44,584 nucleotides of DNA. Source: a virus. The position numbers and the translations under genes are program-made. Positions 9,933 through 33,909 of the stretch are shown here, piece after piece (the first letter of the stretch is position 1; each line of letters starts with the position of its first letter). The stretch covers positions 1 to 44,584 of IMG/VR virus record IMGVR_UViG_3300043570_004735; one strand, 5' to 3'. The notes under the pieces are model-generated. The model saw only the letters and a program-made list of their open reading frames with translations, made no database searches and had not been told where the DNA came from.

Positions 9933-10490
9933 ATGGCTAATTTACCACATTATTCAAATGACCAAACGTCTAAAAAAGGAAGAAACTTCGAACCTATACA
10001 AGGTAATTTGTTTGAAGTTACTATCATTCCACCAGCAGGAATTGCAGGTGGCGAGATGTTATTACAACATGTTAACAGTATATCTGGTTTAGAAACAATT
10101 CATAGACCAATCTCACCAGTTGAACAAAAATTCAAATGGGCAACTAGAAATTATGCTGGTATGCCAGATGGTACTTCACATGATATAACAATTAACTTCT
10201 CATTAAACTTAAATGACGCAAACCAAGCATATCTTTACAAAACCCTTAAAGACTGGTACACGTTAGCTTATAATACAGCTACCGGTGAAATGGGATTGAA
10301 AAAAGATTATGTAGGTACAATCATTATCACAAACTTTAATAGAGTCGGTGATATTTACAGAACACTAACATACGAAGAATGTTTCATAACTTCTGCCATT
10401 AACTTAGGTGACAATGATTACTCAACAGCTGACGCTAAAACTATAGAAATCATTTGGAAATCTGACGTAGCTAAAGAAGAATTAGCATAA
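9933..10490 (+). CDS. 19: Tail tube protein (gp19-like)
   Basis: This 185-aa protein is the inner tube of the tail (T4 gp19 is 163 aa). It has the family pattern of an N-terminal beta hairpin (GNLFEVTIIPP), a mid-region FKWATRNYAGMPDGTSHDITINFSL-type segment and a conserved TYEECFITS near residue 150. It directly follows the sheath gene and ends at a strong terminator, so sheath and tube form one unit. Confidence 0.92.
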   Translation: MANLPHYSNDQTSKKGRNFEPIQGNLFEVTIIPPAGIAGGEMLLQHVNSISGLETIHRPISPVEQKFKWATRNYAGMPDGTSHDITINFSLNLNDANQAYLYKTLKDWYTLAYNTATGEMGLKKDYVGTIIITNFNRVGDIYRTLTYEECFITSAINLGDNDYSTADAKTIEIIWKSDVAKEELA

Positions 10491-10532: not shown

Positions 10533-10568
10533 CGTAAGATAAATATATTATGTTATTATCATATTAAT

Positions 10569-10793
10569 ATGGAAATTCAAAAACTAACAGAAAAACTACA
10601 GGTTCTTATAACCAAAGAAGAATCTGCTGGATTAAATTCGGCAATCTTAAATGATGCGATCGAAGATAATCAAAGACCTGTTTCGGTAAGTGCTTATATT
10701 AGATCTTTAATCAAAAAGGATTTACGACAAAGAGGCATGACAGAGCAGAGATCATACATAAAAGATAAAATCAATAAACTTAACAAACAATAA
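10569..10793 (+). CDS. Small protein, possibly ribbon-helix-helix
   Basis: This 74-aa charged protein reads RPVSVSAYIRSLIKKDLRQRG in its middle, which resembles the strand-helix-helix of CopG/Arc-like DNA binders; this is a weak match. It starts the chaperone unit and ends 2 nt before the next ATG. It could be a regulator or a small morphogenesis factor. Confidence 0.6.
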   Translation: MEIQKLTEKLQVLITKEESAGLNSAILNDAIEDNQRPVSVSAYIRSLIKKDLRQRGMTEQRSYIKDKINKLNKQ

Positions 10794-10795: not shown

Positions 10796-11749
10796 ATGTC
10801 AGAAGAATTAGACGACCTATTAAACCAAAAAGAAAATGAAGGTGGTGCCTTTCAAAATCCAATGATTGATCAGATTAAATCTGAAGGTCTCGGAAGTGTA
10901 GACATGGATCGTTTTGGTCCAGATCAAGCTAGAACTGCTAAAGAAATTTTAGGATGGATGGCAATGGATCTTAAAGCTTTACCGTCAAGAGGTAAATATT
11001 ATCCATCTGATGCTCTTTTACAGATTAGATCTGCAAGAGTTAATGAGATTAGATACTTCTCAACAGTAGATGAATCAAACTTAATTGATGTTGAAGACAA
11101 ATTAAATTACATCGTTAGTAATTGTGTTCAATTTAAATCTGGTAAAAGATTATTGTCTTCTAAAGATATTTGTGAAGAAGATCGTATCTTCGTTCTTTTA
11201 TCAATCAGAGACTTGACTTTTCCTGAGCCTGAAAACAAATTGATTTTTAAATCTCGTAACAAACAAGGTGAAGAAGTTGATATTGAATTGAAATCAGAGT
11301 ATTTTCAAACGACTGATATTCCAGAAGAAATTGAAAACTATTATGATGAATCTCTTAGAGCTTATAAGATTAAAACAAAATCTGCGGGTGAAGTTATCAT
11401 GCGCCCCCCTTCAATCGGTATCATGACACAAGTTACTGAATACATTAAAGAAAAGGAGCAGAACAAGAAGCCTTGGGATAGAGCCTTCATGCAAGTATTT
11501 CCATACATTCAATTAGATTGGAGAGGCATGGATGAAAAACGTATTTTTGCAGCTGAAATTGAATTTAAAAGTTGGGATGAAAGAAAATACATGGTTATTT
11601 ACAGATTAGCTGAAAAAATGAAAATTGGGGCAAGCGCTGAATTAGTAGCGAATATTGCGGGTGAGGAGGTCCGTGCCCAAATTGACAACTTTCCAGGTGG
11701 GATTAAAAGTCTTTTCGTTATTCAAGATCTCTCTGGAGAACTTCTTTAA
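10796..11749 (+). CDS. Tail-assembly chaperone / hub protein (zero-frame product)
   Basis: The 317-aa protein contains LPSRGKYYP (about residues 63-71), typical of gp26-like hub/tail-assembly proteins, followed by a region resembling the tail chaperone core (EIRYFSTVDE, IVSNCVQFKSGK). Its place between tail tube and tape measure is where most long-tailed phages encode a chaperone pair joined by ribosomal frameshifting. The gene ends GAA CTT CTT TAA G with GGAG just upstream. This resembles the CTT-stop +1 site of prfB and leads into the open frame 11748-11966. Confidence 0.78.
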   Translation: MSEELDDLLNQKENEGGAFQNPMIDQIKSEGLGSVDMDRFGPDQARTAKEILGWMAMDLKALPSRGKYYPSDALLQIRSARVNEIRYFSTVDESNLIDVEDKLNYIVSNCVQFKSGKRLLSSKDICEEDRIFVLLSIRDLTFPEPENKLIFKSRNKQGEEVDIELKSEYFQTTDIPEEIENYYDESLRAYKIKTKSAGEVIMRPPSIGIMTQVTEYIKEKEQNKKPWDRAFMQVFPYIQLDWRGMDEKRIFAAEIEFKSWDERKYMVIYRLAEKMKIGASAELVANIAGEEVRAQIDNFPGGIKSLFVIQDLSGELL

Positions 11750-11966
11750 GGTTAAGTTTCAATTTATCAAACAGTTGCATCTGCAACCTAGTGAAATTGA
11801 AGAAATGCCTTATTACGAATATCATTACACATTAGATTTTCTAGTTAAAGATATTAAAGAAGAGAACAAACGTACACAAGAGCAAAATGATAGTCAAAAA
11901 TCATCAGCTCCTAAAATGCCAAATATGCCAAAAATGCCAAAAATACCTTCGATGAAGAAGTATTAA
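11748..11966 (+). CDS. +1 frameshift extension of the tail-assembly chaperone
   Basis: If tRNA-Leu slips from CTT (11744-11746) to TTT, reading continues at AAG (11748) for 72 codons, giving a 389-aa fusion. The extension contains LQPSEIEEMPYYEYHYTLDF, which matches the C-terminal pattern of gp26/51-like chaperones (small-Pro-Tyr-Glu). It ends in a Met-Pro-Lys repeat tail. The frame is open back to a TTG at 11655, but no good start codon or RBS exists for separate translation. The first ATG in frame (about 11804) would cut off the conserved part. Confidence 0.7.
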   Translation, partial: KVKFQFIKQLHLQPSEIEEMPYYEYHYTLDFLVKDIKEENKRTQEQNDSQKSSAPKMPNMPKMPKIPSMKKY

Positions 11967-12007: not shown

Positions 12008-14392
12008 GTGGTATTTAAATCTCCATTTGAGAAATTCTCAGCTGAAAACTCTATAAAATTGCAAGCAAGCATCTCCAACATACAAGAAGTAGTTGGAGGT
12101 ATTGCTGCTATGGGAGCTATTACAGCTGAAAAAATAGATACTATTGCTAAATGTTCAATTATACAAGTTAATTATTTAAGACAAATTTATAAAGTCTTAG
12201 TTAAAGGATCTGTAACTCCAAAAGAAAAAGCTCAAGCCGCAGTAAAAGAAAAAGGTGATTCACCCGAAACTGCATTATTTGGAAGTAAAAAAGGCAAAGG
12301 AGTTATGAGCGGAGTCAAAGAAGCCGCAGTTGCCCTGGTCTTAATTGCTGGAGCTTTGATTATATTTGTTGGAGCTATGGCACTTGCTGGTGCAATAATA
12401 AGCCCAGCTATGATTCCTGCTATATTAACAGTAACAATAGCAATTGCTATAGTGACTATGGCATTTGCACAAATGATAAAAATTATTGCTGAAAATAAAA
12501 TCAAAACCAATGATGTTATTTTGGCAGCTATAGCAGTTGCTATCATGGCACCAGTTATTGTTTCTACTGCCTTAATTTTCTTAATGTTGCCAGATAAGTA
12601 TAAAGCTCCAGATCCAATGTGGACTCTTTTAGCTGGATTTACTATTTTAATATTTTCAGCAGCCGTTGCTTTAATTTTAAAGGGTGGTGGAAGAGCTTTA
12701 AGCCGAGATAAAAGTTTAACATATACTTTACCTCTTCTTATTGCAGGATTAGCTCTTGCTATTCTTGCAGCATCTTATATTTTTCAATTATTACCAGATA
12801 CTTTTAAATCTCCTCCATTAGAATGGTCTTTTAATGTTGGTATGGCTTTATTAGCATTCTCATTCCCTGCAATGGTTCTGAGTTTGATGGGTTGGACACC
12901 ATTAGAAATCGTTATAATACCTTTATTAATTATAGCACTAGCAGGAGCATTATTAGGTGCTGCTTTTATATTGTCTTTTGCACCAAGTAAATGGATCTCT
13001 CCGCCATTGGAATGGTCTCTTGGAATTGGTGTTTCATTATTGATGTTTGGTGGAGTTGCAGCCTTATTAGGCTTAATAATAAAATCCACAGGTGGTCCAG
13101 TACCATTCTTAATAGGCGCATTAGCTTTAATAGTTTTAGCAGTAGTTATACTTGCAGTGGCAGGAATTCTATCATTACTACCAGAAGGTCTATTTAAAAA
13201 AGATGGACTTTTGTATAAAATCGCTGACACGATGGAATATTTCGGTTTTAAAATGGTTAACGTCTTTGTTTATTTAGTTAAAGAATTAATGCCTTATGTT
13301 AAAGAGTTTATTACGTTTATGGCAAATTTGTTTGTTGACATCTTCCCTAAAATTGTAGATCCTTTAAATAGATTTATTGATGCATTAGCAACTTCATTTG
13401 GTAAATTACTAGACCATGTGGTGCCCCTAATTACAGCAGCTTTTGATGGTATTGCAAAAGTATTATCAGCAGCATCAGAAATTATAGTACCTATTATTAA
13501 TGCAATTAAAGAAGTAATATTAGGTGTACTTGATTTTATTATTAAAGGTTTCCAAGAATTTAGAGGATTTATTAATGATTTAGCTTCAATTGGAGCTGGA
13601 AATATTTTAGCAATTGGCGGAGCCTTATTTTCTCTTGCGGGTGGATTAGCAGCTGTGATGGCTGTGATGGCTGGAGGAGCAATTGCTCAAGGTGTTGGTA
13701 AAGCCGTTGAAGGCTTAGGAAATTTAGTTGGTGGTATTGCAAGTGGAATTGGTAATTTCTTCTCAGGTGAAGAAGCACCAAAAGAGGCTAAAATGGATCC
13801 TATGCAATTTATTAGTTTTGTTGCAGCAAACGTTGGAGCATTAGAACAAGCAGCAACTTCTTTAGAAAAGATTGCAAAATCACTATCTAGCATTATGGTA
13901 TTAAAACCAACAGAAGGTCTTATGAAGTTTCTAGGTGTTTTCTCAAATTATGTTAAAGTAATTTCTGGAGGAGGAATCTTTGGTGGTCCAGTTGATGCAA
14001 TAGTAAAAGCAAATAACAGTTTTGTCGGCTTATTTAAAGAAATACAGAAAGTTGACGATATGAAATTAATGAAAGTTAATGACATATTAGAAAATACAGC
14101 TAATCTAATGAGATTAGACAAAGGTGATGGTATTGAAGTTGCGATGGAAGCAGTTACTAAATTTATTAAAGAAGCTGTTGACGTGGTTGCAAAAAATAGC
14201 GAAGCAGTAAATAAAGTTTCAAAAGGCACGGAAGTTTCTCAATCTGAACTTAAGCAAATGATCGAACAGATGAAATTAGCTGTTGATAAAATGGGTTCTC
14301 AAAATATTGGTGCAGATATTAAAGCAGCTTTATCTGGAGCCACATTAGGAGTTAGAGTTACTAACACAAGTGACTTTAAATTTGGAAGATAA
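12008..14392 (+). CDS. Tail tape-measure-like membrane-active protein
   Basis: Position after the chaperone and 794 aa of hydrophobic and helical sequence point to the tape-measure protein, which sets tail length and may be injected. Start is GTG; no closer ATG fits. The N-terminal 100 aa are helical and charged. Residues about 105-400 hold many hydrophobic segments in three related units (LPDKYKAPDPMWTLLAG, LPDTFKSPPLEWSFNVG, APSKWISPPLEWSLGIG), each followed by two hydrophobic helices. The C-terminal 200 aa are amphipathic. A pore-forming role during DNA entry is inferred. Confidence 0.75.
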   Translation: MVFKSPFEKFSAENSIKLQASISNIQEVVGGIAAMGAITAEKIDTIAKCSIIQVNYLRQIYKVLVKGSVTPKEKAQAAVKEKGDSPETALFGSKKGKGVMSGVKEAAVALVLIAGALIIFVGAMALAGAIISPAMIPAILTVTIAIAIVTMAFAQMIKIIAENKIKTNDVILAAIAVAIMAPVIVSTALIFLMLPDKYKAPDPMWTLLAGFTILIFSAAVALILKGGGRALSRDKSLTYTLPLLIAGLALAILAASYIFQLLPDTFKSPPLEWSFNVGMALLAFSFPAMVLSLMGWTPLEIVIIPLLIIALAGALLGAAFILSFAPSKWISPPLEWSLGIGVSLLMFGGVAALLGLIIKSTGGPVPFLIGALALIVLAVVILAVAGILSLLPEGLFKKDGLLYKIADTMEYFGFKMVNVFVYLVKELMPYVKEFITFMANLFVDIFPKIVDPLNRFIDALATSFGKLLDHVVPLITAAFDGIAKVLSAASEIIVPIINAIKEVILGVLDFIIKGFQEFRGFINDLASIGAGNILAIGGALFSLAGGLAAVMAVMAGGAIAQGVGKAVEGLGNLVGGIASGIGNFFSGEEAPKEAKMDPMQFISFVAANVGALEQAATSLEKIAKSLSSIMVLKPTEGLMKFLGVFSNYVKVISGGGIFGGPVDAIVKANNSFVGLFKEIQKVDDMKLMKVNDILENTANLMRLDKGDGIEVAMEAVTKFIKEAVDVVAKNSEAVNKVSKGTEVSQSELKQMIEQMKLAVDKMGSQNIGADIKAALSGATLGVRVTNTSDFKFGR

Positions 14393-14878: not shown

Positions 14879-17800
14879 ATGGATAATAATTATTTACCAA
14901 GACTCATCTATCTTATAGAATATACAGATGGAAGCAACCCAAATTCGGGTAGAGTTTCGTTTAACAGCCCGCATGTTGATGAAATTACAAACATCAAAAT
15001 ACATGACTTAGATCTTAAAGATAACAAGAATGCTTATCTAAAATCTCAAACTGATATCGGTGCAAAAATCACTATTTTAAATAGTGAAAACCCAGAACGT
15101 TACATTATGTACACTGTTACTGGAATAAATTATTCTGATTTTAATTTAGACGGTACAGTAAATGGTCTAGATTTAGACGTTGATTATGCTGATAGAAATT
15201 TAGGAGAAGTAAACGGAGTAGAAATTGATGAGGCCCTAGTTTTTAGAAAGGGTATCAAAATATATTTTTCTGTTGATGCTACTGGAAGTTCAACTGGAGC
15301 TAAAGGTGCAACAGGTGCTCAAGGTGCTAGTGGTTCTACTGGTGCACAAGGTAATGTTGGTTCTAAAGGAGACACGGGTGCTCAAGGTTCTACAGGATCT
15401 GGAGCTCAAGGTGCAGTAGGTGCTCAAGGTTCAACTGGTTCTAAAGGAGAAGTTGGTGCTCAAGGTTCAATTGGTTCTAAAGGAGAAGTTGGTGCTCAAG
15501 GCTCAACTGGAATTGGTGCTCAAGGTGCTGAAGGTGCTCAGGGTTCAATTGGTTCTAAAGGAGAAGTTGGTGCTCAAGGTGCAGACGGAATAGGTGCAAT
15601 AGGTGCTCAAGGTAGTATTGGAAATACAGGTGCTCAAGGAAATACAGGTGCCCAAGGAAATGCTGGTACTAATGGTACTCAAGGCGATATTGGTTTACAA
15701 GGTGCTCAAGGCTCAATAGGTGCTCAAGGCTCGACTGGTTCTAAAGGAGAAGTTGGTGCTCAAGGTTCTATTGGAAATACAGGTGCTCAAGGTATAGATG
15801 GTATAAAAGGTGCTGAAGGTGCACAAGGTGGTATTGGAAATACAGGTGCTCAAGGATCAATTGGTTCTGTAGGTGCTCAAGGTATAGATGGAGCACAAGG
15901 TTCGAACGGAGCTCAAGGTGCTCAAGGAAATACAGGTGCTCAAGGTTTAGCTGGTTCTGATGGGTCCGACGGCGCCCAAGGTGCAAGTGGTTCAAATGGA
16001 ACTGATGGAGCTCAAGGAAATGCAGGAACTAATGGAGCTCAAGGTTCTGATGGAACTGATGGAGCTCAAGGTTCAATTGGTACTAAAGGCGATACTGGTT
16101 CTAAAGGTAGTGATGGAATTGATGGTGCTCAGGGTGATACTGGTTCTAAAGGAGAAGTTGGTGCTCAAGGTAGTGCTGGAACAAACGGTGCTCAAGGTGA
16201 TACTGGTTTAAAAGGTGATTTAGGTGCTCAAGGTAGTGCTGGAACAAACGGTGCTCAAGGTGATACTGGTTCTAAAGGAGAAGTTGGTGCTCAAGGCATA
16301 ACAGGTGCTCAAGGAACAAATGGTAATGATGGATTTGATGGTGCTAAGGGAGAAACAGGTAGTAAAGGTGAAGTTGGTGCTCAAGGAGCAGAAGGTGCTC
16401 AAGGAAATACTGGTTCTACAGGAGCTCAAGGTTTTGCTGGAACTAATGGAGCTCAGGGTAGTATAGGTTTCCAAGGTGCTGAAGGTGCTCAAGGATCTGT
16501 TGGTACTAAAGGAGAAGTTGGTGCTCAAGGTGACGCTGGTTCTACTGGTGCACAAGGTGCAGCTGGTGCTCAAGGAACGAGCGGATTGTCTGGTATTGAT
16601 GGTTCTCAAGGTAGTGCTGGAACAAACGGTGCTCAAGGAAATGATGGAGCTCAAGGCGCTCAAGGAAACGATGGAGCAAAAGGCGAAATTGGAAATACAG
16701 GTGCTCAAGGTGACTTAGGTGCTCAAGGTAATATTGGAAATACAGGTGCTCAAGGATCAAAAGGTGATTTAGGTACAACAGGTGCTCAAGGTGACTTAGG
16801 TGCTCAAGGAGCAAAAGGCGAAATTGGTGTTACTGGTGCTCAAGGTGACTTAGGTGCTCAAGGAGCAAAGGGTGACTTAGGCACAAAGGGTGAAATTGGT
16901 GTTACAGGTGCCCAAGGAGCAAAAGGTGACTTAGGACCTCAAGGTAATATTGGAACAACTGGTGCTCAAGGTGCAAAAGGTGACTTAGGTGTTACTGGAG
17001 CTCAAGGTGACTTAGGTGCTCAAGGTAGTGCTGGAACTAATGGAACAAAGGGTGAAATTGGTGCTCAAGGAGCAAAAGGTGACTTAGGTGTTACTGGAGC
17101 TCAAGGTGACTTAGGTGCTCAAGGTAGTGCTGGAACTAATGGAACAAAGGGTGAAATTGGTGCTCAAGGAGCAAAAGGTGATCTAGGACCTCAAGGTAAT
17201 ATTGGAAATACAGGTGCTCAAGGAGCAAAGGGTGACTTAGGTGCTCAAGGAGCAAAAGGTGACTTAGGTGCTCAAGGTAATATTGGAAATACAGGTGCTC
17301 AAGGAGCAAAGGGTGATTTGGGTGTTCAAGGTTTACAAGGTGCTCAAGGAGCAAAAGGTGACTTAGGTGTTACTGGAGCTCAAGGTGACTTAGGTGCTCA
17401 AGGAGCAAAAGGTGACTTAGGTACAACAGGTGCTCAAGGAGCAAAGGGTGACTTAGGTGTTACTGGAGCTCAAGGTGACTTAGGTGCTCAAGGAGCAAAG
17501 GGTGATTTAGGACCTCAAGGTAATATTGGAAATACGGGTGCTCAAGGTGACTTAGGTGCTCAAGGAGCAAAGGGTGACCAAGGTGCAACAGGTGCTCAAG
17601 GTGACTTAGGTGCTCAAGGAGCAAAAGGTGACTTAGGTACAACAGGTGCTCAAGGTGCAAAAGGTGACTTAGGTGTTACTGGTGCTCAAGGTGATTTAGG
17701 TGCTCAAGGTAGTGCTGGAACTAATGGAACAAAGGGTGAAATTGGAACAACAGGTGCTCAAGGTGCAAAAGGTGACTTAGGACCTCAGGGTAATATTGGA

Positions 17801-20800
17801 AATACAGGTGCTCAAGGTGCAAAAGGTGACTTAGGTGTTACTGGAGCTCAAGGTGACTTAGGTGCTCAAGGAGCAAAAGGTGACTTAGGTGCAACTGGAG
17901 CTCAAGGTGACTTAGGTGCTCAAGGTAGTGCTGGAAATACCGGAGCACAAGGAGCTAAAGGTGATTTAGGACCTCAAGGTAATATTGGAAATATAGGTGC
18001 TCAAGGTGACTTAGGAGCTCAAGGAGCAAAAGGTGATTTAGGTGCAACTGGTGCTCAAGGAGCTAAAGGTGATTTAGGTGCAAAGGGTGATTTAGGTGCT
18101 CAAGGTGACTTAGGAGCTCAAGGAGCAAAAGGTGACTTAGGTGCAATAGGAGCTCAAGGTTTACAAGGTGCTCAAGGAGCAAAAGGTGACTTAGGTGTTA
18201 CTGGAGCTCAAGGAGCAAAAGGTGATCTAGGTGCAACAGGTGCTCAAGGAGCAAAAGGTGACTTAGGTGCAACAGGTGCTCAAGGAGCAAAAGGTGACTT
18301 AGGTGCAACAGGTGCTCAAGGAGCAAAAGGTGACTTAGGTGCAACAGGAGCTCAAGGAGCAAAAGGTGACTTAGGTGCAAAAGGTGACTTAGGTACAAAA
18401 GGAGATCAAGGTGCAACAGGAATTGGAATTGATGGTGCTCAAGGAGCCAAAGGTGACTTAGGTGCAACAGGAGCTCAAGGAGATAAAGGTGATACTGGAA
18501 TTGGAACTACTGGAGCTCAAGGAGCTAAAGGTGAAATTGGTGTAAAAGGCGATCAAGGAGCCAAAGGTGACTTAGGTGCAACCGGGGCTCAAGGAACAGT
18601 TGGTGCAGTGGGTGCTCAAGGTGCAGTTGGACCACAAGGCGTTAAGGGTGCTGCCGGAGTTGACGGATTAGCAGGATCGACAGGATTGCAGGGTGCTCAA
18701 GGTGCTTTAGGACCACAAGGACCTCAAGGTGCTCAAGGAGCTAAAGGTGACTTAGGTGTAACAGGTGCTCAAGGAGCAAAAGGTGATTTGGGTGCAACAG
18801 GTGCTCAAGGAGCAAAAGGTGATTTGGGTGTTCAAGGTTTACAAGGTGCTCAAGGAGCAAAAGGTGACTTAGGTGTTACTGGAGCTCAAGGAGATTTAGG
18901 TGCTCAAGGTGCAAAAGGTGACTTAGGTGCTCAAGGTAGTTTAGGACCTCAAGGTAATATTGGAAATACAGGTGCTCAAGGAGCAAAAGGTGATTTAGGA
19001 CCTCAAGGCAATATTGGAAATACAGGAGCTAAAGGTGACTTAGGTGCAACAGGAGCTCAAGGAGCAAAAGGTGACTTAGGTGCAACAGGTGCTCAAGGAG
19101 CAAAAGGTGACTTAGGTGCTCAAGGAGCAAAAGGTGACTTAGGTGCTCAAGGAGCAAAAGGTGACTTAGGTGCAACAGGTGCTCAAGGAGCCAAAGGTGA
19201 CTTAGGTGCAACAGGTGCTCAAGGAGCTAAAGGTGATTTAGGTGCAAAAGGTGATTTAGGTGCAACAGGTGCTCAAGGAGCTAAAGGTGACTTAGGTGCT
19301 CAAGGAGCAAAAGGTGATTTAGGACCTCAAGGTAATATTGGAAATACAGGTGCTCAAGGAGCTAAAGGTGATTTAGGACCTCAAGGTAATATTGGAAATA
19401 CAGGTGCTCAAGGAGCAAAAGGTGATTTAGGACCTCAAGGCAATATTGGAAATACAGGAGCTCAAGGAGCCAAAGGTGACTTAGGTGCAACAGGAGCTCA
19501 AGGAGCAAAAGGTGACTTAGGTGCAACAGGAGCTCAAGGAGCAAAAGGTGACTTAGGTGCTCAAGGAGCAAAAGGTGACTTAGGTGCAATAGGAGCTCAA
19601 GGAGCTAAAGGTGACTTAGGTGCAACAGGTGCTCAAGGTGCAAAAGGTGACTTAGGTGCTCAAGGTAGTTTAGGACCTCAAGGTAATATTGGAAATACAG
19701 GTGCTCAAGGAGCAAAAGGTGATTTAGGACCTCAAGGCAATATTGGAAATACAGGAGCTAAAGGTGACTTAGGTGCAACAGGAGCTCAAGGAGCAAAAGG
19801 TGACTTAGGTGCAACAGGTGCTCAAGGAGCAAAAGGTGACTTAGGTGCTCAAGGAGCAAAAGGTGACTTAGGTGCTCAAGGAGCAAAAGGTGACTTAGGT
19901 GCAACAGGTGCTCAAGGAGCCAAAGGTGACTTAGGTGCAACAGGTGCTCAAGGAGCTAAAGGTGATTTAGGTGCAAAAGGTGATTTAGGTGCAACAGGTG
20001 CTCAAGGAGCTAAAGGTGACTTAGGTGCTCAAGGAGCAAAAGGTGATTTAGGACCTCAAGGTAATATTGGAAATACAGGTGCTCAAGGAGCAAAAGGTGA
20101 TCTAGGACCTCAAGGTAATATTGGAAATACAGGTGCTCAAGGAGCAAAAGGTGATCTAGGACCTCAAGGTAATATTGGAAATACAGGTGCTCAAGGAGCT
20201 AAAGGTGATCAAGGAGCAACTGGGATTGGAATAGATGGTGCTCAAGGAGCTAAAGGTGATTTAGGTGCAACAGGAGCTCAAGGAGCAAAAGGTGATGCTG
20301 GAATTGGAACTACTGGTGCTCAAGGAGCAAAAGGTGACTTAGGTGCAACAGGAGCTCAAGGAGCAAAAGGTGACTTAGGTGCAACAGGTGCTCAAGGAGC
20401 AAAAGGTGACTTAGGTGCAACAGGAGCTCAAGGAGCAAAAGGTGACTTAGGTGCAACAGGTGCTCAAGGAGCAAAAGGTGACTTAGGTGCAACAGGAGCT
20501 CAAGGAGCAAAAGGTGACTTAGGTACAAAAGGAGATCAAGGAGCCAAAGGTGACTTAGGTACAAAAGGAGATCAAGGAGCAACAGGAATTGGAATTGATG
20601 GAGCTCAAGGAGCTAAAGGTGACTTAGGTGCAACAGGTGCTCAAGGAGATAAAGGTGATACTGGAATTGGAACTACTGGAGCTCAAGGAGCTAAGGGTGA
20701 AATCGGTGTTACAGGTGCTCAAGGAGCTAAAGGCGAAATTGGTGTAAAAGGAGATCAAGGAGCTAAAGGTGACTTAGGTACAAAAGGAGATCAAGGTGCT

Positions 20801-21616
20801 CAAGGCGATTTAGGACCACAAGGTGCTCAAGGAGCAACAGGACCCGCTGGTTTATCTGGAGTTGATGGAGCGCAAGGTGCAACTGGAACTGGAACTACTG
20901 GACCAACTGGACCAACTGGACCAACTGGAACAACTGGACCGACAGGTGCTCAAGGAGCTAAAGGTGACTTAGGTACAACAGGTGCTCAAGGAGCAAAAGG
21001 TGAAGTTGGTGTAAAAGGTGCTCAAGGAGCAACCGGAGCAGGAACACCAGGACCAGGTGGAACACCAGGATCTGATGGAGCTCAAGGTGCAACTGGACCC
21101 GCTGGTGCAGGTGGAGGTGTTTCAGGTTACGTTCAACTAGTATTAGCAGCTAACATTCCAAACCCTGTTAATTTATTTTTACCAATGACACTTAGTACTG
21201 AACATGATACATTAAATAGAGTAACAAGTCCGGGTGGACAATACACTGCTATTAACATCTTATCTGGTGAAATATGGGAAGTTGAAGCGCATGTAACTTC
21301 ATTTAATAACGCGCTTCAACATGGTATAACACTAGCATGGGTCACAGGAGCTGGAACATTAAACGAGGATTTTGAGCCAATTAAAACAGCTCAGATACCT
21401 GGTTTTCAAGATCATCCAGTAACATGTCATATTAGTGCTATAATAAGACCTAATGACAATCGACAATTGGCATTAATAAATTTAGTCGCATCTAGTAATT
21501 GTACAATTTTAGCACAAGATTATCCACTGGTCCAATTAGGTGGTAATAGTTTCACGAATGAAGATTGGAATGGCAAAGGAAAAGTAACTTGGTTATATGC
21601 TCATAGAATATCTTAA
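14879..21616 (+). CDS. Giant collagen-like tail fibre / adhesin
   Basis: This is a 2245-aa protein. Residues 1-139 form a non-repetitive N-terminal domain, probably the virion anchor. Residues about 140-2075 are roughly 645 uninterrupted Gly-X-Y triplets dominated by GAQGAKGDLG and GPQGNIGNTG, with Lys mainly in the Y position and little Pro. Residues about 2085-2245 form a beta-rich globular tip that resembles C1q/TNF-like heads of trimeric collagen-like fibres. A trimeric collagen helix of this length would be about half a micrometre if fully extended. The lysozyme gene follows directly. Confidence 0.93.
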   Translation: MDNNYLPRLIYLIEYTDGSNPNSGRVSFNSPHVDEITNIKIHDLDLKDNKNAYLKSQTDIGAKITILNSENPERYIMYTVTGINYSDFNLDGTVNGLDLDVDYADRNLGEVNGVEIDEALVFRKGIKIYFSVDATGSSTGAKGATGAQGASGSTGAQGNVGSKGDTGAQGSTGSGAQGAVGAQGSTGSKGEVGAQGSIGSKGEVGAQGSTGIGAQGAEGAQGSIGSKGEVGAQGADGIGAIGAQGSIGNTGAQGNTGAQGNAGTNGTQGDIGLQGAQGSIGAQGSTGSKGEVGAQGSIGNTGAQGIDGIKGAEGAQGGIGNTGAQGSIGSVGAQGIDGAQGSNGAQGAQGNTGAQGLAGSDGSDGAQGASGSNGTDGAQGNAGTNGAQGSDGTDGAQGSIGTKGDTGSKGSDGIDGAQGDTGSKGEVGAQGSAGTNGAQGDTGLKGDLGAQGSAGTNGAQGDTGSKGEVGAQGITGAQGTNGNDGFDGAKGETGSKGEVGAQGAEGAQGNTGSTGAQGFAGTNGAQGSIGFQGAEGAQGSVGTKGEVGAQGDAGSTGAQGAAGAQGTSGLSGIDGSQGSAGTNGAQGNDGAQGAQGNDGAKGEIGNTGAQGDLGAQGNIGNTGAQGSKGDLGTTGAQGDLGAQGAKGEIGVTGAQGDLGAQGAKGDLGTKGEIGVTGAQGAKGDLGPQGNIGTTGAQGAKGDLGVTGAQGDLGAQGSAGTNGTKGEIGAQGAKGDLGVTGAQGDLGAQGSAGTNGTKGEIGAQGAKGDLGPQGNIGNTGAQGAKGDLGAQGAKGDLGAQGNIGNTGAQGAKGDLGVQGLQGAQGAKGDLGVTGAQGDLGAQGAKGDLGTTGAQGAKGDLGVTGAQGDLGAQGAKGDLGPQGNIGNTGAQGDLGAQGAKGDQGATGAQGDLGAQGAKGDLGTTGAQGAKGDLGVTGAQGDLGAQGSAGTNGTKGEIGTTGAQGAKGDLGPQGNIGNTGAQGAKGDLGVTGAQGDLGAQGAKGDLGATGAQGDLGAQGSAGNTGAQGAKGDLGPQGNIGNIGAQGDLGAQGAKGDLGATGAQGAKGDLGAKGDLGAQGDLGAQGAKGDLGAIGAQGLQGAQGAKGDLGVTGAQGAKGDLGATGAQGAKGDLGATGAQGAKGDLGATGAQGAKGDLGATGAQGAKGDLGAKGDLGTKGDQGATGIGIDGAQGAKGDLGATGAQGDKGDTGIGTTGAQGAKGEIGVKGDQGAKGDLGATGAQGTVGAVGAQGAVGPQGVKGAAGVDGLAGSTGLQGAQGALGPQGPQGAQGAKGDLGVTGAQGAKGDLGATGAQGAKGDLGVQGLQGAQGAKGDLGVTGAQGDLGAQGAKGDLGAQGSLGPQGNIGNTGAQGAKGDLGPQGNIGNTGAKGDLGATGAQGAKGDLGATGAQGAKGDLGAQGAKGDLGAQGAKGDLGATGAQGAKGDLGATGAQGAKGDLGAKGDLGATGAQGAKGDLGAQGAKGDLGPQGNIGNTGAQGAKGDLGPQGNIGNTGAQGAKGDLGPQGNIGNTGAQGAKGDLGATGAQGAKGDLGATGAQGAKGDLGAQGAKGDLGAIGAQGAKGDLGATGAQGAKGDLGAQGSLGPQGNIGNTGAQGAKGDLGPQGNIGNTGAKGDLGATGAQGAKGDLGATGAQGAKGDLGAQGAKGDLGAQGAKGDLGATGAQGAKGDLGATGAQGAKGDLGAKGDLGATGAQGAKGDLGAQGAKGDLGPQGNIGNTGAQGAKGDLGPQGNIGNTGAQGAKGDLGPQGNIGNTGAQGAKGDQGATGIGIDGAQGAKGDLGATGAQGAKGDAGIGTTGAQGAKGDLGATGAQGAKGDLGATGAQGAKGDLGATGAQGAKGDLGATGAQGAKGDLGATGAQGAKGDLGTKGDQGAKGDLGTKGDQGATGIGIDGAQGAKGDLGATGAQGDKGDTGIGTTGAQGAKGEIGVTGAQGAKGEIGVKGDQGAKGDLGTKGDQGAQGDLGPQGAQGATGPAGLSGVDGAQGATGTGTTGPTGPTGPTGTTGPTGAQGAKGDLGTTGAQGAKGEVGVKGAQGATGAGTPGPGGTPGSDGAQGATGPAGAGGGVSGYVQLVLAANIPNPVNLFLPMTLSTEHDTLNRVTSPGGQYTAINILSGEIWEVEAHVTSFNNALQHGITLAWVTGAGTLNEDFEPIKTAQIPGFQDHPVTCHISAIIRPNDNRQLALINLVASSNCTILAQDYPLVQLGGNSFTNEDWNGKGKVTWLYAHRIS
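18901..19360 (+). repeat. Copy 1 of a 460-bp duplication in the fibre gene
   Basis: About 460 bp read identically at 18901-19360 and 19630-20089, an offset of 729 bp or 81 Gly-X-Y triplets. It is in frame. Recent unequal recombination or an assembly artefact could explain it. Confidence 0.85.
19630..20089 (+). repeat. Copy 2 of the 460-bp duplication
   Basis: Identical to 18901-19360 wherever compared. The copies diverge just after this segment (gca here, gct in copy 1). Confidence 0.85.
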
Positions 21617-28580: not shown

Positions 28581-28632
28581 CTTTTTAAAATAAAAGTGTC
28601 CGGTTTAAAAAGAATGTATTATATTAGCAGTA
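28573..28632 (+). promoter_or_regulatory. Promoter-like region of the sigma-factor gene
   Basis: GTTCGTAACTT (28573-28583), GTGTC (28596-28600) and TATATTAGCAGTA (28620-28632). The last 13-mer is identical to the one before the RNase H gene. Confidence 0.6.
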
Positions 28633-29282
28633 TGAATAACCAAAATAAAAACAGCAAACGTATGAAAGTAAAAAACAATAACCTAAGCTATCGTGAATTA
28701 GCAGAAAATTTTGTAGCAACTAAATCTGAATCAGATTATGTGCAATTGTATAAAAAAGTTAAACCAGGTTTAAGATCTTATATCTTTAAAACTGTTAAGG
28801 ACTCTGCTGCAGCTGAAGATATTTTGACTAATACATTGACTAAGTTGTGGACCAAGATTGATCAGTATGATCCTCAGTATCAAATTACAACATGGTTATA
28901 TCGCATTGCATTCAACGAGTGTCTTGGTTGGATTCGTGAACGTAATCGTAAGTATTCTTTGGATTCTATGCAAGAATTTGGTTTAGACATTGAAGAATCA
29001 ACTGGTAAACTTACAAGTAACATTTCTGATTTGATGGAAGATTACGAAATGAAATCTGAAGCTGATTATTTAGCTGAAGATGCAGAACTTGATAGAGTTT
29101 ATGAATCTACTTTGATGGCAATGGATAAGTTGAAACCAATATATAAGAATATACTTGTTGATCGAATCATCAATGAAATGAAATACGAAGATTTGGCTGA
29201 TAAGTATAAATTACCTTTGCAAACTATCAAAAATAGAATTCGTCGAGGTCGCTTATTGGTGATCGAGATGGTCGAAGCATAA
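28632..29282 (+). CDS. ECF-type RNA polymerase sigma factor
   Basis: 216 aa from the ATG at 28632 (a downstream ATG at 28662 gives a longer leader and is an alternative). Region 2 spans about residues 50-100, with AAAEDILTNTLTKLWTKI followed by TWLYRIAFNECLGWIRERNR, the classic ECF -10 recognition helix. Region 4 spans about 160-205, with MKYEDLADKYKLPLQTIKNR as the helix-turn-helix. There is an acidic linker between them. It probably redirects host polymerase to a phage promoter class. Confidence 0.88.
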   Translation: MNNQNKNSKRMKVKNNNLSYRELAENFVATKSESDYVQLYKKVKPGLRSYIFKTVKDSAAAEDILTNTLTKLWTKIDQYDPQYQITTWLYRIAFNECLGWIRERNRKYSLDSMQEFGLDIEESTGKLTSNISDLMEDYEMKSEADYLAEDAELDRVYESTLMAMDKLKPIYKNILVDRIINEMKYEDLADKYKLPLQTIKNRIRRGRLLVIEMVEA

Positions 29283-30604: not shown

Positions 30605-30680
30605 GGTGCGGTAGCTCAGATGGTAGAGCACAGGACTGAAAATCCTGGTGTCGGCGGTTCGATCCCGCCCCGCACCACCA
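30605..30680 (+). tRNA. tRNA-Phe (GAA)
   Basis: Acceptor GGTGCGG/CCGCACC, loop CTGAAAA on stem CAGGA/TCCTG, normal T-arm, encoded CCA. First tRNA of the array. Confidence 0.96.
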
Positions 30681-30688
30681 GAATAAAT

Positions 30689-30710
30689 GTTCTTTGACAT
30701 ATTGGTAAAT
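30689..30710 (+). promoter_or_regulatory. boxA-like antitermination motif 1
   Basis: TGTTCTTTGACATATTGG matches the boxA seen in Bacteroidota rRNA/tRNA leaders (compare B. subtilis TGTTCTTTGAAAA). The core TCTTTGACATATTGGTAAA recurs at 31053 and 33496. Confidence 0.65.
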
Positions 30711-30712
30711 TT

Positions 30713-30782
30713 GTATAAGTTGATCTTGGAGGTCAGTAGGTCTGCAAAATCTACGGAGTTGGTTCGATTCCAACCTTATACT
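30713..30782 (+). tRNA. tRNA-Cys (GCA)
   Basis: Acceptor GTATAAG/CTTATAC, anticodon stem TAGGT/ATCTA with loop CTGCAAA, T-arm with TTCGATT, discriminator T as expected for Cys. The D-loop is short. Confidence 0.85.
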
Positions 30783-30785
30783 CAA

Positions 30786-30847
30786 TGTCCTGTACCCTTG
30801 AGAAACTCGTATCAAGTTAGTATGATTGACTGTGGATAAGCAGGACA
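30786..30847 (+). ncRNA. Small structured inter-tRNA element A
   Basis: Closed by TGTCCTG/CAGGACA (7 bp); inside is CTTGA/TCAAG. It lies between tRNA-Cys and tRNA-Pro. There is no T-loop or anticodon loop, so it is not a standard tRNA. Confidence 0.4.
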
Positions 30848-30883
30848 GCACGAAATAAAGGGGTAAGAGAATAAGTGCACTAT

Positions 30884-30959
30884 CGGGATGTGGACTAATT
30901 GGCTAAGTCGCCACTTTTGGGAAGTGGACATCATCCAGGTTCGAGTCCTGGTATCCCGA
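30884..30959 (+). tRNA. tRNA-Pro (TGG)
   Basis: Acceptor CGGGATG/TATCCCG, anticodon stem CCACT/AGTGG with loop TTTGGGA, T-arm CCAGG-TTCGAGT-CCTGG. Confidence 0.94.
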
Positions 30960-30966
30960 CAAAAAT

Positions 30967-31040
30967 GTTCGTAACTTCTGAAAAATAGTTGCAAATAAAT
31001 TTTTTATTGTCAAGTATTTCGTTTATATTTACTGTATAAT
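30967..31040 (+). promoter_or_regulatory. Promoter region inside the tRNA array
   Basis: GTTCGTAACTT (30967-30977), T-run and TTGTC (ending 31011), TATATTTAC (31024-31032) and GTATAAT (to 31040), followed by a boxA-like site at 31051. This is the clearest start for transcription of the downstream tRNAs. Confidence 0.65.
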
Positions 31041-31050
31041 TAAAAACAAA

Positions 31051-31075
31051 AGATCTTTGACATATTGGTAAAATA
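31051..31075 (+). promoter_or_regulatory. boxA-like antitermination motif 2
   Basis: AGATCTTTGACATATTGG continuing TAAAATA. It is identical over 25 nt to the copy at 33494 and sits just downstream of a promoter-like site. Confidence 0.68.
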
Positions 31076-31168
31076 ATCATAAGCCCATTGGTTGGGAGCA
31101 CCCCTCAAGGTTGAATCTTTGGATTCTTTATTGTAAAGCTGGAATTGGTTCGAATCCAATTATGATTA
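31075..31168 (+). other. tRNA-like element 1 (anticodon arm not resolvable)
   Basis: Acceptor AATCATA/TATGATT, D-arm CCCA/TGGG, T-arm ATTGG-TTCGAAT-CCAAT are all perfect. The 47 nt between D- and T-arms do not form a normal anticodon arm; instead CTTTA/TAAAG and GAATC/GATTC can pair. TGA (Ser) or TCA could be forced only with mismatches. Confidence 0.6.
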
Positions 31169-31173
31169 CAAAC

Positions 31174-31270
31174 AGTCAGTCTTCAGAATGGTATCTGTAT
31201 GACTACATGATAAACCACAAGGCTCAGAAAGTCAATCTTGTGGCTGTAGGTTCGAATCCTACACTGACTA
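31174..31270 (+). other. tRNA-like element 2 with long inserted hairpin
   Basis: Acceptor AGTCAGT/ACTGACT, D-arm CAGA/TCTG with loop ATGGTA, T-arm GTAGG-TTCGAAT-CCTAC. Where anticodon and variable arms should be there is a 7-bp stem CCACAAG/CTTGTGG with a 15-nt loop. No standard anticodon arm was found. Confidence 0.6.
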
Positions 31271-31320
31271 CAAAGTCCAGGAGTAATTAACTTGGTACCT
31301 GAGGTGTTCGAAAACCTCGA

Positions 31321-31395
31321 TTGATTATGGTGTAAAGGTGCACAGCAGAACGTAATAGGGACGCAAGATTAAGGTTCAATTCCTTTTTAGTCAGC
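31321..31395 (+). other. tRNA-like element 3 with altered T-loop
   Basis: Acceptor TTGATTA/TAGTCAG (two G-U pairs), D-arm GTGT/GCAC, T-arm AAGG-TTCAATT-CCTT in which the TTCRA loop has one base missing. No anticodon arm can be paired. A hairpin GAGGT/ACCTC lies just upstream (31301-31318). Confidence 0.45.
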
Positions 31396-31400
31396 AATTT

Positions 31401-31486
31401 GGATCGGTTGAGCAATTGGTTGGCTCAGCGGACTGTAAATCCGCCCTCTTACGAGCATGTAGGTTCGAGTCCTACCCGGTCCACCA
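31401..31486 (+). tRNA. tRNA-Tyr (GTA)
   Basis: Acceptor GGATCGG/CCGGTCC, loop CTGTAAA on a CGGA/TCCG stem, class II variable arm CTCTTACGAG, encoded CCA. Confidence 0.95.
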
Positions 31487-31614
31487 AGAAAGTTGATTGG
31501 GGAATAGTATACTGTAACCTGATGATGGAGGTGGTATATAAGAGTTTGGAATCATCTTAGTAATGCCAATCGTAAAAACAGATGTCCACTGAACCATCTT
31601 CTGTTTTCTTTCTT
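31487..31614 (+). ncRNA. Structured inter-tRNA element B
   Basis: AGAAAG/CTTTCT closes about 128 nt between tRNA-Tyr and tRNA-Trp. Inside are GATTGG/CCAATC (31495/31566), GATGAT/ATCATC (31521/31551) and a strong hairpin AAAACAGA/TCTGTTTT (31575/31600). No ORF. Confidence 0.5.
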
Positions 31615-31619
31615 TTTAC

Positions 31620-31690
31620 ACGTTTGTGGTGCAATGGTAGCATACCGGTCTCCAAAACCGTTGATGGGGGTTCGAATCCCTCCAAGCGTG
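31620..31690 (+). tRNA. tRNA-Trp (CCA)
   Basis: Acceptor ACGTTTG/CAAGCGT, loop CTCCAAA, T-arm GGGGG-TTCGAAT-CCCTC, discriminator G. Confidence 0.93.
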
Positions 31691-31695
31691 CAAAT

Positions 31696-31772
31696 GGTCC
31701 TTTAGCTCAGTTGGTTAGAGCGCCGCACTCATAATGCGAGGGTCACAGGTTCAAATCCTGTAGGGACCACCA
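31696..31772 (+). tRNA. tRNA-Met/Ile2 (CAT)
   Basis: Acceptor GGTCCTT/AGGGACC, anticodon stem CCGCA/TGCGA with loop CTCATAA, T-arm ACAGG-TTCAAAT-CCTGT, encoded CCA. Elongator Met or lysidine-type Ile cannot be told apart by eye. Confidence 0.93.
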
Positions 31773-31776
31773 ACAT

Positions 31777-31848
31777 AGTTTATTAGTTCAATGGATAGAA
31801 CACTTGACTACGGATCAAGAGATAAGGGTTCGAATCCTTTATAAACTA
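31777..31848 (+). tRNA. tRNA-Arg (ACG)
   Basis: Acceptor AGTTTAT/ATAAACT, stem CTTGA/TCAAG with loop CTACGGA. A34 would need TadA editing to inosine to read all CGN codons. Confidence 0.94.
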
Positions 31849-31854
31849 CTAAAT

Positions 31855-31928
31855 TGCGATATGGTAGAGTTGGTTTCTTACGATGCTCTCATAAGGCATA
31901 GACACTGGTTCGAGTCCAGTTGTCGCAA
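31855..31928 (+). tRNA. tRNA-Met/Ile2 (CAT), second copy
   Basis: Acceptor TGCGATA/TGTCGCA, anticodon stem ATGCT/GGCAT with loop CTCATAA, T-arm ACTGG-TTCGAGT-CCAGT. The D-arm is poorly paired. Confidence 0.82.
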
Positions 31929-31937
31929 CAAAAATTT

Positions 31938-32011
31938 GATCTCGTAGCTCAGTTGGCTAGAGCACCTCACTTTTAATGAGGGAGTCAAGGGTTCGAGTCC
32001 CTTCGGGATCA
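31938..32011 (+). tRNA. tRNA-Lys (TTT)
   Basis: Acceptor GATCTCG/CGGGATC, stem CCTCA/TGAGG with loop CTTTTAA. Confidence 0.95.
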
Positions 32012-32014
32012 CAA

Positions 32015-32101
32015 ACTTCATTTATAATACTACGATCTCTCAGTTAAAAGCTGTCGTAGAGTAAAGTTATAGTCCGACATGGCTATTGGTTATAATGAAG
32101 T
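32015..32101 (+). ncRNA. Structured inter-tRNA element C (three-way junction)
   Basis: Closed by ACTTCATTTATAA / TTATAATGAAGT (12 bp, one bulge), with CTACGA/TCGTAG capped by CAG/CTG and a second hairpin ATAG/CTAT. It begins 4 nt after tRNA-Lys and ends 4 nt before tRNA-Val. It has no T-loop. Confidence 0.6.
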
Positions 32102-32105
32102 ATTT

Positions 32106-32180
32106 GCTCTCTTAGCTCAGTTGGTTTAGAGCGCTGCCCTTACAAGGCAGATGTCGTAGGTTCGAATCCTACAGAGAGCA
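32106..32180 (+). tRNA. tRNA-Val (TAC)
   Basis: Acceptor GCTCTCT/AGAGAGC, stem CTGCC/GGCAG with loop CTTACAA. Confidence 0.95.
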
Positions 32181-32274
32181 CTCGCCGCACAAAGTGTGGA
32201 GGAACTGGCCAGAGATTTATTCTTGCAAACTCGATGCCGAAAGTCGAGCTGCCCATCTACGGGATGGGCTTTAT
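32181..32274 (+). ncRNA. Multi-hairpin inter-tRNA element D
   Basis: It is GC-richer than its surroundings. Hairpins are CCGCAC/GTGTGG with loop AAA (32184-32198), CTGGCCAG, CTCGA/TCGAG (32230/32244) and GCCCATC/GATGGGC (32251/32263) followed by TTT. There is no T-loop, and it abuts tRNA-Val and tRNA-His. Confidence 0.5.
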
Positions 32275-32348
32275 GGTGGATGTAGCTCAATCGGGAGAGC
32301 GTTGGTTTGTGGAACCAAAGGTAGTGGGATCGAAACCCATCATTCACC
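32275..32348 (+). tRNA. tRNA-His (GTG)
   Basis: Acceptor GTGGATG/CATTCAC plus the extra G-1 pairing with C73 that marks tRNA-His; anticodon stem TTGGT/ACCAA with loop TTGTGGA. The T-loop ATCGAAA deviates from TTCRA. Confidence 0.88.
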
Positions 32349-32353
32349 CAAAT

Positions 32354-32440
32354 GGAAGATTGTCAGAGTGGTCTATCGTATCTCTTTGCTAAAGAGATGG
32401 TCGCGAAAGCGGCCCAGAGGTTCGAATCCTTTATCTTCCG
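32354..32440 (+). tRNA. tRNA-Ser (GCT)
   Basis: Class II: acceptor GGAAGAT/ATCTTCC, stem TCTCT/AGAGA with loop TTGCTAA, variable arm TCGCGAAAGCGG. Confidence 0.95.
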
Positions 32441-32467
32441 CTTAATTTTGATAAATAATAAATGAAG

Positions 32468-32499
32468 TTTTGAAACATACAAGCTTTGGTCTGTATAAC
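32468..32499 (+). promoter_or_regulatory. TTGAAACA / TATAAC promoter-like site
   Basis: TTTTGAAACATAC at 32468 and GTATAAC ending at 32499, ahead of tRNA-Leu and the epimerase gene. Same layout as 22096-22125. Confidence 0.5.
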
Positions 32500-32536
32500 T
32501 AACATAACGTTCTTAAAATTATAAACGAATTAAAAT

Positions 32537-32622
32537 GCACTCGTGGTGAAATAGGTAGACACGAGGGACTTAAAATCCCTTGGCCAGTGATGGTCGTGCC
32601 GGTTCGATTCCGGCCGAGTGTA
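32537..32622 (+). tRNA. tRNA-Leu (TAA)
   Basis: Class II: acceptor GCACTCG/CGAGTGT, stem AGGGA/TCCCT with loop CTTAAAA, T-arm GCCGG-TTCGATT-CCGGC. Confidence 0.96.
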
Positions 32623-32630
32623 CAAAAAGT

Positions 32631-33503
32631 ATGGCAAAAGCATTAGTTACAGGTGGAGCAGGTTTTATTGGATCTAATTTGGTCGACTTCTTATTAAAGG
32701 AAGGACACGAAGTTGAGGTTTGGGATGACTTATCCACTGGTAAACTTGAAAGACTTTCTAAAGAAGTAGAATTCAAAAGATTAGACTTAACTAGAGATGT
32801 TCTACCAGATATTGAAGTTGATTGGGTATTTCACTTAGCAGCACCAGTATCTGTTCAAGAATCTTTGGAAAATCCATCTAAATATATGTATGGTTGTTTT
32901 GGTACAACTTATAGAATGTTAGATTGGTCTAGAAGAAATAGTGCTAAGAGCTTTACGTTAGCATCGACCGCTGCTGTGTATGGAGAAACAGAACAAATAC
33001 CTGTTAAAGAAACAGATGAATTGAATCCTATTTCTCCATACGCTGAATGGAAATTAAAAGCTGAAGATTGTTTAAGCATGTACAAATCATATTTTACATG
33101 TACAGCACTCAGATTCTTTAATGTCTATGGCAACGGTCAAAGTAGCACTGGAAGTTATGCTCCAGCTGTTGCAAGATTTTTAGATCAATATAGATCTGAA
33201 CAACCAATAACAGTGACAGGTTCTGGCTTACAAACCAGAGATTATGTCAATGTTAATGATATATGTTCAGCACTATATGAATCTGGAAAAAGAATTGGAC
33301 CATTCTTAATAATGAATGTTGGATCAGGCAAAGAAATAGCTATCTTAGACATAGCAAAAGCCTTTGAAACAAATATAACATTCATTGATAAAAGAAAAGA
33401 ACCAATGAGATCTGGAGCTGATATTACTTTAATTAAAAGTAAATTAGCATGGAGACCAAAGGAAAATATCTTTGAATGGATCAAACATAATTTAGATCTT
33501 TGA
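32631..33503 (+). CDS. NAD-dependent sugar-nucleotide epimerase/dehydratase
   Basis: This 290-aa extended short-chain dehydrogenase resembles UDP-glucose 4-epimerases. The start at 32631 lies 8 nt after tRNA-Leu; upstream codons belong to the tRNA. NAD-binding GGAGFIG is at residues 8-14, with DDLSTGK near 36-42. Catalytic Ser lies in ASTAAVYGE (about 107-115) and Tyr/Lys in YAEWK (about 136-140). RFFNVYG is typical of the substrate side. It would remodel surface sugars or glycosyl donors. A boxA-like motif overlaps its stop codon. Confidence 0.9.
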   Translation: MAKALVTGGAGFIGSNLVDFLLKEGHEVEVWDDLSTGKLERLSKEVEFKRLDLTRDVLPDIEVDWVFHLAAPVSVQESLENPSKYMYGCFGTTYRMLDWSRRNSAKSFTLASTAAVYGETEQIPVKETDELNPISPYAEWKLKAEDCLSMYKSYFTCTALRFFNVYGNGQSSTGSYAPAVARFLDQYRSEQPITVTGSGLQTRDYVNVNDICSALYESGKRIGPFLIMNVGSGKEIAILDIAKAFETNITFIDKRKEPMRSGADITLIKSKLAWRPKENIFEWIKHNLDL

Positions 33504-33518
33504 CATATTGGTAAAATA
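33494..33518 (+). promoter_or_regulatory. boxA-like antitermination motif 3
   Basis: Identical to the copy at 31051-31075, here overlapping the last codons of the epimerase gene and leading into further tRNAs. Confidence 0.68.
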
Positions 33519-33526
33519 AAGAAATT

Positions 33527-33581
33527 AGGATGCATACAGCAAATTTAAAAACTTTTATTGGAAAAAGCAAAACTGCATCCT
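33527..33581 (+). ncRNA. Small structured inter-tRNA element E
   Basis: AGGATGCA / TGCATCCT (8 bp) encloses an A-rich 39-nt loop with CAG/CTG at its base. It lies between boxA 3 and tRNA-Ile. Confidence 0.4.
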
Positions 33582-33588
33582 GTTAAAT

Positions 33589-33662
33589 AGACACTTAGCT
33601 CAATTGGTTAGAGCATTCGCCTGATACGCGAAAGGTTACAAGTTCGATTCTTGTAGTGTCTA
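33589..33662 (+). tRNA. tRNA-Ile (GAT)
   Basis: Acceptor AGACACT/AGTGTCT, stem TTCGC/GCGAA with loop CTGATAC. Confidence 0.95.
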
Positions 33663-33668
33663 CGCAGA

Positions 33669-33822
33669 AATCCAACACAACGACGACTTGCAAACAAAGT
33701 ATTCTAGTGATAGAAGCAGTCATCCAAGTATGATTTGGAACGTGCACTGGTAGGCAACCAACCTATATTATGATACGAGCTAATACTTGTGGATTAAAGG
33801 TGACGATCAGGAAAGACTGATA
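33669..33822 (+). ncRNA. Structured inter-tRNA element F
   Basis: AATCCA/TGGATT (33669/33790) and AAGTATT/AATACTT (33697/33782) form nested outer helices. TCCAA/TTGGA (33723/33735) and TAGG/CCTA (33751/33762) form inner hairpins, and ATCAG/CTGAT (about 33806-33821) follows. It fills the space between tRNA-Ile and tRNA-Asp. Confidence 0.55.
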
Positions 33823-33827
33823 ATTTT

Positions 33828-33899
33828 GGTCTCATAGTTAATCGGCTATAATATTGCCCTGTCACGGCAAAGTGCCGGGTTCGATTCCCGGTGGGACCG
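33828..33899 (+). tRNA. tRNA-Asp (GTC)
   Basis: Acceptor GGTCTCA/TGGGACC, stem TTGCC/GGCAA with loop CTGTCAC, discriminator G. Confidence 0.95.
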
Positions 33900-33909
33900 C
33901 AAACGATTG

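Follow-up and report, generated by a model that had tools for sequence, protein, structure and literature searches.

The analysed window comprised the whole of IMG/VR virus record IMGVR_UViG_3300043570_004735, a viral contig of 44,584 bases. At the locus of interest, ORF1 (positions 10796–11749, plus strand) encoded 317 amino acids and ended in GGA GAA CTT CTT TAA, with its stop codon at 11747–11749. Beyond this stop, the +1 frame stayed open for 72 codons up to a TAA at 11964–11966, and this extension (ORF2) included LQPSEIEEMPYYEYHY. Both the closing GGAG-AA-CTT-CTT-TAA and the 72 codons in the +1 frame had been described in the initial annotation and were confirmed in the sequence. Its placement of the locus between tube and tape-measure genes was also right. 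A tail tube-like gene matching PHROG 4542/45 tail tube profiles lay upstream (9933–10490, plus strand), with an extra 76-codon ORF (10563–10790) between it and ORF1. A probable tape-measure gene lay downstream (12008–14392, plus strand); a family search with it gave no match, and it was called from its position and its composition, including a GTG start and hydrophobic repeats. With that call, the gene order is that of the G/GT type of chaperone locus. Further downstream, a 2245-aa ORF (14879–21616) consisted mostly of collagen-like Gly-x-y repeats (GAQGAKGDLG...) and probably encodes a tail appendage. By eye only, the product of 28596–29282 resembled an ECF-type sigma-70 factor and that of 38276–39370 an M42 aminopeptidase, which is unusual for a phage.

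The frame relation between ORF1 and ORF2, together with CTT CTT TAA, was kept in 161 metagenomic loci representing 90 distinct sequences (the window family; ORF1 approximately 43–100% identical to that of the window), which excludes a sequencing error. The frame relation described in the initial annotation is therefore not the product of a missing base. Both frames were intact in the near-identical loci L001–L006 from other metagenomes, and the distance from the ORF1 stop to the QPSE motif was exactly 12 codons in all 38 non-redundant relatives; such a two-frame arrangement is far beyond chance. Scans seeded with the Chryseobacterium phage MA9V and with the Sphingomonas phage PAU yielded no further relatives except PAU itself. 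A genome scan found one short contig inside a betaproteobacterial MAG, probably a stray viral contig. The hosts of relatives were Flavobacterium, Chryseobacterium, Tenacibaculum and Prevotella. A second, independent clade, the megaphage clade, contributed 56 distinct sequences, with some counts made over 54. In the Lak phages L017 and L019, ORF2 was also in the +1 frame and was longer; that of L017 was open only if TAG is taken as a sense codon, in keeping with the recoding of Lak phages.

The two protein parts were assigned by homology to the T4 gp26 and gp51 families. The ORF1 protein of the window had no Pfam match of its own, and its sequence search of the PDB gave nothing significant. It was tied to PF12322 through relative L009 (43–44% identity), which exceeded the family cut-off of 24.5 bits (29.7 bits), as did PAU (33.9 bits), and through hhalign, where a profile of 18 ORF1 sequences aligned over most of its length with Kyanoviridae gp26 (probability 94, E-value 1e-7). 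When compared with viral models, an AlphaFold2 model of ORF1 (mean pLDDT 82.7) resembled baseplate hub assembly proteins of T4-like phages; its comparison with PDB structures gave nothing significant, the HK97 chaperone 2ob9 appearing at the noise level (E-value 5.5). ORF2 matched PHROG 634, 'baseplate hub assembly catalyst' (E-value 2.6e-7), a profile also matched by ORF2 of 10 out of 11 relatives, and aligned with Kyanoviridae gp51 (hhalign probability 98, E-value 1.3e-13). In T4, gp51 itself carries PF12322 over residues 1–201 followed by an ORF2-like domain (201–244), so the fusion exists there as one continuous protein. The gp26/gp51 pair is described as tail assembly chaperones of T4-like phages by Vladimirov, Gautam and Davidson (2022, Virology 566:9–15), as cited in PMC10885494. 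By these homologies, a chaperone function may be ascribed to the product of the window locus, and a programmed +1 frameshift in a tail assembly chaperone gene, as put forward initially, is well supported, with the difference that it can now be said to join gp26 and gp51 domains.

We located the shift by the reach of coding constraint in the two frames (negative positions are counted from the ORF1 stop). Between −37 and −10, frame-0 third positions were almost fixed in the 38 non-redundant relatives, and variation fell mainly at −36, −30, −27, −24, −18, −15 and −12, where the +1 frame has its wobble positions and frame 0 its first positions. In a 54-tip parsimony analysis, third positions of frame 0 underwent 0–3 changes from codon 305 (approximately −37) on, compared to a mean of about 12 for codons before 295. 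In the window, this dual-coded overlap spans 11711–11746 (plus strand) and reads LFVIQDLSGELL in frame 0 and VFSLFKISLENFF in the +1 frame. The conserved +1 peptide, xFSLFxISLENFFK, had versions in the +1 frame of PAU, the Flavobacterium phage MaF61, PTm1, pT24, MA9V and the megaphages. Constraint on the +1 protein was thus present already 12 codons ahead of the ORF1 stop among the 90 distinct relatives, which places the frameshift upstream of CTT-TAA.

This result bears directly on the site named in the initial annotation, a stop-dependent slip at CTT_TAA of the kind found in bacterial prfB, which would give a junction peptide SLFVIQDLSGELLK followed by VK. The site has attractive features: GAA CTT CTT TAA was invariant in relatives, no +1 site is known to be more efficient than CUU_U, and in 72% of Bacteroidia the prfB shift takes place at CUU_U (PMC8710568, PMC5009743). 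Yet a slip there leaves the +1 frame unread at −37 to −10, where the constraint lies, and we rejected it on this ground. The supposed Shine–Dalgarno (SD)-like GGAG preceded the last CTT by 5 nt rather than 3 nt and was unconserved, being TCAG, ACAG, CAAG, GACG or GAAG in several relatives; the stop was TAA in every window-family sequence rather than the UGA of the prfB type. As to the site recurring in relatives, CTT CTT TAA was found in all 90 distinct window-family sequences, but the same +1 ORF2 follows GAA TAA in the megaphage clade, TTT TAA in Lak phages and TCT TAA in PAU. A prfB-like slip at CTT_TAA is accordingly very improbable. The invariance of CTT CTT TAA (11741–11749, plus strand) at all three codon positions is explained by coding in both frames, as ELL-stop in frame 0, where it ends the short form, and as NFFK in +1. 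Its invariant frame-0 first positions suggest that the C-terminus of the short form is itself under selection, and by sequence comparison the C-termini of both forms are.

Independent translation of ORF2, by initiation inside ORF1 or by re-initiation, was rejected for want of a start codon common to relatives. ATG codons do occur near the stop in PAU, MaF61 and PTm1, where ORF2 is annotated as a separate gene. Against this, 11 of the 90 distinct sequences had no ATG, GTG or TTG in the +1 frame ahead of the conserved motif and 57 had no ATG, conserved +1 residues came before any common start codon, and T4 has both parts in one protein. We give this possibility hardly any credence.

Bounds on the position of a shift were set by stop codons in the +1 frame, which occurred at −62 to −60 in eight of the 90 sequences but were absent from all 90 between −60 and the end of ORF1. 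Of the codons in the −63 to −45 interval, one alone was generally able to re-pair in +1, the TTT of TTT_C at −57 (11690–11693, plus strand), where tRNA-Phe(GAA) would move from UUU to UUC; the next frame-0 codon in the window is CCA. We propose TTT_C, 19 codons upstream of the CTT_TAA site, as the best slip site. No codon in this interval re-paired for a −2 slip, and a 22-nt hop between TTT triplets was discarded, the landing triplet being TAT in several lineages. An in-frame TTT followed by C was conserved beyond protein need, in 78/90 sequences of the window family and 56/56 of the megaphage clade. TTT at −57 had undergone one synonymous change in the tree, compared to 4–15 in comparable two-fold columns. 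Where arginine followed, its codon was CGY (CGC or CGT) in 58 of 58 window-family cases, with AGR making up 85% and CGN 15% of arginine codons elsewhere in the same genes.

The megaphage clade showed the same boundary. Many codons before TTT had 8–17 third-position changes (10 at the immediately preceding codon, 14 and 17 at two slightly earlier ones), TTT CCC had none, and past it there were essentially none save at GGA, GCN, CAT and GAA codons. CCC followed TTT in 54/54 sequences versus 2/418 at other places. Two observations qualify the pattern in other phages: TTT_C was absent from the corresponding place in MA9V and in the Tenacibaculum phage PTm1, and 12 of the 90 distinct sequences, all from one clade (the L033–L052 group), had TTC CCA, which does not re-pair, so this clade must shift by another site, perhaps CTT_TTC at −36. 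In the window family, the +1 frame was nearly unconstrained from −52 to −46, a stretch that would have to act as a loose linker. The phage also encodes the tRNA expected to slip: ARAGORN predicted a tRNA-Phe(GAA) gene at 30605–30680 (plus strand). It was among 27 tRNA genes at 30605–35450 and scattered elsewhere, which included tRNA-Arg(ACG) and two tRNA-Leu; one of the latter, tRNA-Leu(TAA) at 32537–32623, is overlapped by the listed start of a sugar nucleotide epimerase-like gene (32580–33503). RNAalifold predicted zero conserved pairs on relatives, and single-sequence folding gave a z-score of about −1.6 against plain shuffles.

A homologous junction with the opposite shift was found in other members of the T4 superfamily. 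In 11 sampled gp26/gp51 junctions (L103–L107 and L189–L194; 10 named phages and one marine single-cell contig), gp51 was in the −1 frame behind a heptamer T_TTT_TTC or T_TTT_TTT. These phages belonged to Kyanoviridae, Cr30, Menderavirus, Angelvirus and Schizotequatrovirus and infect cyanobacteria, Pelagibacter, Caulobacter, Stenotrophomonas, Aeromonas or Vibrio, or are of unknown host. In databases, their gp51 appears as a small gene of its own or is missing. Like the window, they enter the gp51 domain by a frameshift with a purine-rich AGG or GGG upstream (approximately 10–13 nt ahead of the heptamer). They differ in that the heptamer sits right at the end of gp26, whereas TTT_C of the window lies about 19 codons earlier. 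The window family falls outside this group, having NTW TTC at the heptamer's place and gp51 in +1.

The place homologous to the heptamer, CTT_TTC near the start of the conserved overlap (11711–11716), could itself be the slip site, by +1 (CUU to UUU) or by −2 (UUC to UUU). CTT or ATT preceded TTC there in 84/90 sequences, hhalign aligned CTT_TTC opposite T_TTT_TTC, and the site was intact in the TTC CCA clade. Re-pairing would fail, though, at CTA or TTA TTC (6/90), at ATA TTC in Lak phages and at ATT GTC in pT24, and a shift at this point leaves unexplained the constraint at −55, at −43 and on the CGY and CCC codons, and also why TTT CCC marks the onset of constraint among the megaphage sequences. 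We consider CTT_TTC an unlikely general site, if a somewhat better candidate than CTT_TAA or independent initiation.

Upstream of TTT_C, the window carries an SD-like element, AGGAGG (11664–11669, plus strand), 20 nt ahead of the slip codon; the distance in relatives was 11–20 nt, mostly 17 nt. Of the window family, 57/90 sequences had the element, as had 46/54 of the megaphage clade; control stretches lying 150 nt upstream contained it in 0/90 and 0/54, respectively. The two glutamate codons that form it in the megaphage clade were GAG in 105 of 105 cases versus 23% elsewhere. AGGAGG may have a role in the shift. Stimulatory SD elements of known +1 sites stand 3 nt from the slip codon, and a spacing of 17–20 nt is unlike theirs. 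None of 30 window genes had an SD-like motif before its start codon, as expected for Bacteroidota. Hosts of this type hide their anti-SD, yet most retain the prfB frameshift, and prfB of F. johnsoniae uses AGGAGG (PMC8710568).

We compared the locus with known systems. The T4-like gp26/gp51 chaperones share its protein families, with gp26 as the short form and gp26 plus the gp51 C-terminal domain as the long form. The difference lies in T4 having two separate genes, 26 and 51, on opposite strands, and the window one gene with a +1 shift. Lambda G/GT and SPP1 17.5/17.5* share the place before the tape measure and the pairing of a short with a frameshifted long form; in lambda, the shift is −1 at GGGAAAG. 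That of SPP1 17.5/17.5* is −1 at UUUUUUC (PMC6316719). Both differ from the window in direction, and the likeness to them is one of arrangement. A +1 direction in a tail gene is shared with Listeria phage PSA tsh (CCC_UGA), SPP1 17.1 (CCC_UAA) and archaeal HSTV-2 (G-T). PSA and SPP1 17.1 slip at CCC before a stop, whereas the window would slip at UUU_C, where no stop codon stands. The shift of bacterial prfB is likewise +1, and AGGAGG recurs in prfB of F. johnsoniae (PMC8710568), but the window site has no CUU, no stop at the slip and its AGGAGG 17–20 nt away instead of 3 nt. In bacteria, UUU_Ynn is described as especially prone to +1 slippage with no stop codon required (PMC5009743). A like slip logic is that of influenza A PA-X, which shifts at UCC UUU CGU (PMC8310308) and shares the UUU_CGN tetranucleotide, the +1 direction and a seldom-used arginine codon in the A site; the virus and ribosome are unrelated, and the likeness is limited to that logic.

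Taken as a whole, the explanation that we consider very probable is a chaperone gene of a T4-superfamily phage with a Bacteroidota-type host, one gene giving two products by a +1 slip at UUU_C. The majority of ribosomes would stay in frame 0 and stop at 11747–11749, producing the 317-aa gp26-type short form. Some would slip at 11690–11693, as tRNA-Phe re-pairs from UUU to UUC, and read the +1 frame to 11966; the slip and its efficiency we infer from the comparison of sequences. The +1 part (11694–11966, plus strand) has 90 codons plus the stop, and the long form would comprise 299 + 90 = 389 aa, that is, the gp26 domain to F299 followed by the gp51-type C-terminal domain. A slip at TTT_C predicts the junction peptide AQIDNFQVGLK, compared to AQIDNFPGGIK in the unshifted product. 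As with lambda G/GT, the minority long form may serve during assembly to connect the tape measure with the tube or the baseplate.

A broader proposal seems to us evenly poised between right and wrong: that AGGAGG about 17 nt before UUU_C, without a stop codon, is a distinct +1 signal that drives the long form across a large group of T4-superfamily phages of the Bacteroidota type, in hosts that initiate without SD pairing, and that it replaced the −1 signal as an ancestor entered these hosts. We hypothesize that the change to ribosomes that ignore the SD was the reason for this move from −1 to +1.

A 2016 review made an exception of T4 ('except T4'; PMC5009743), and the present findings would extend the lambda-type rule of short and long forms to the group so excepted. 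One superfamily would then reach the same protein pair by three routes: a −1 shift, a +1 shift and two separate genes. For ORF2-type genes of these phages, current annotation gives either a truncated protein on its own or nothing. The proposed site would be a natural, widely conserved, stop-independent +1 site in phages whose genes show no SD starts, and, with its AGGAGG at an unusual distance, it would allow a direct test of whether mRNA and rRNA pair in elongating ribosomes of hosts of this kind.
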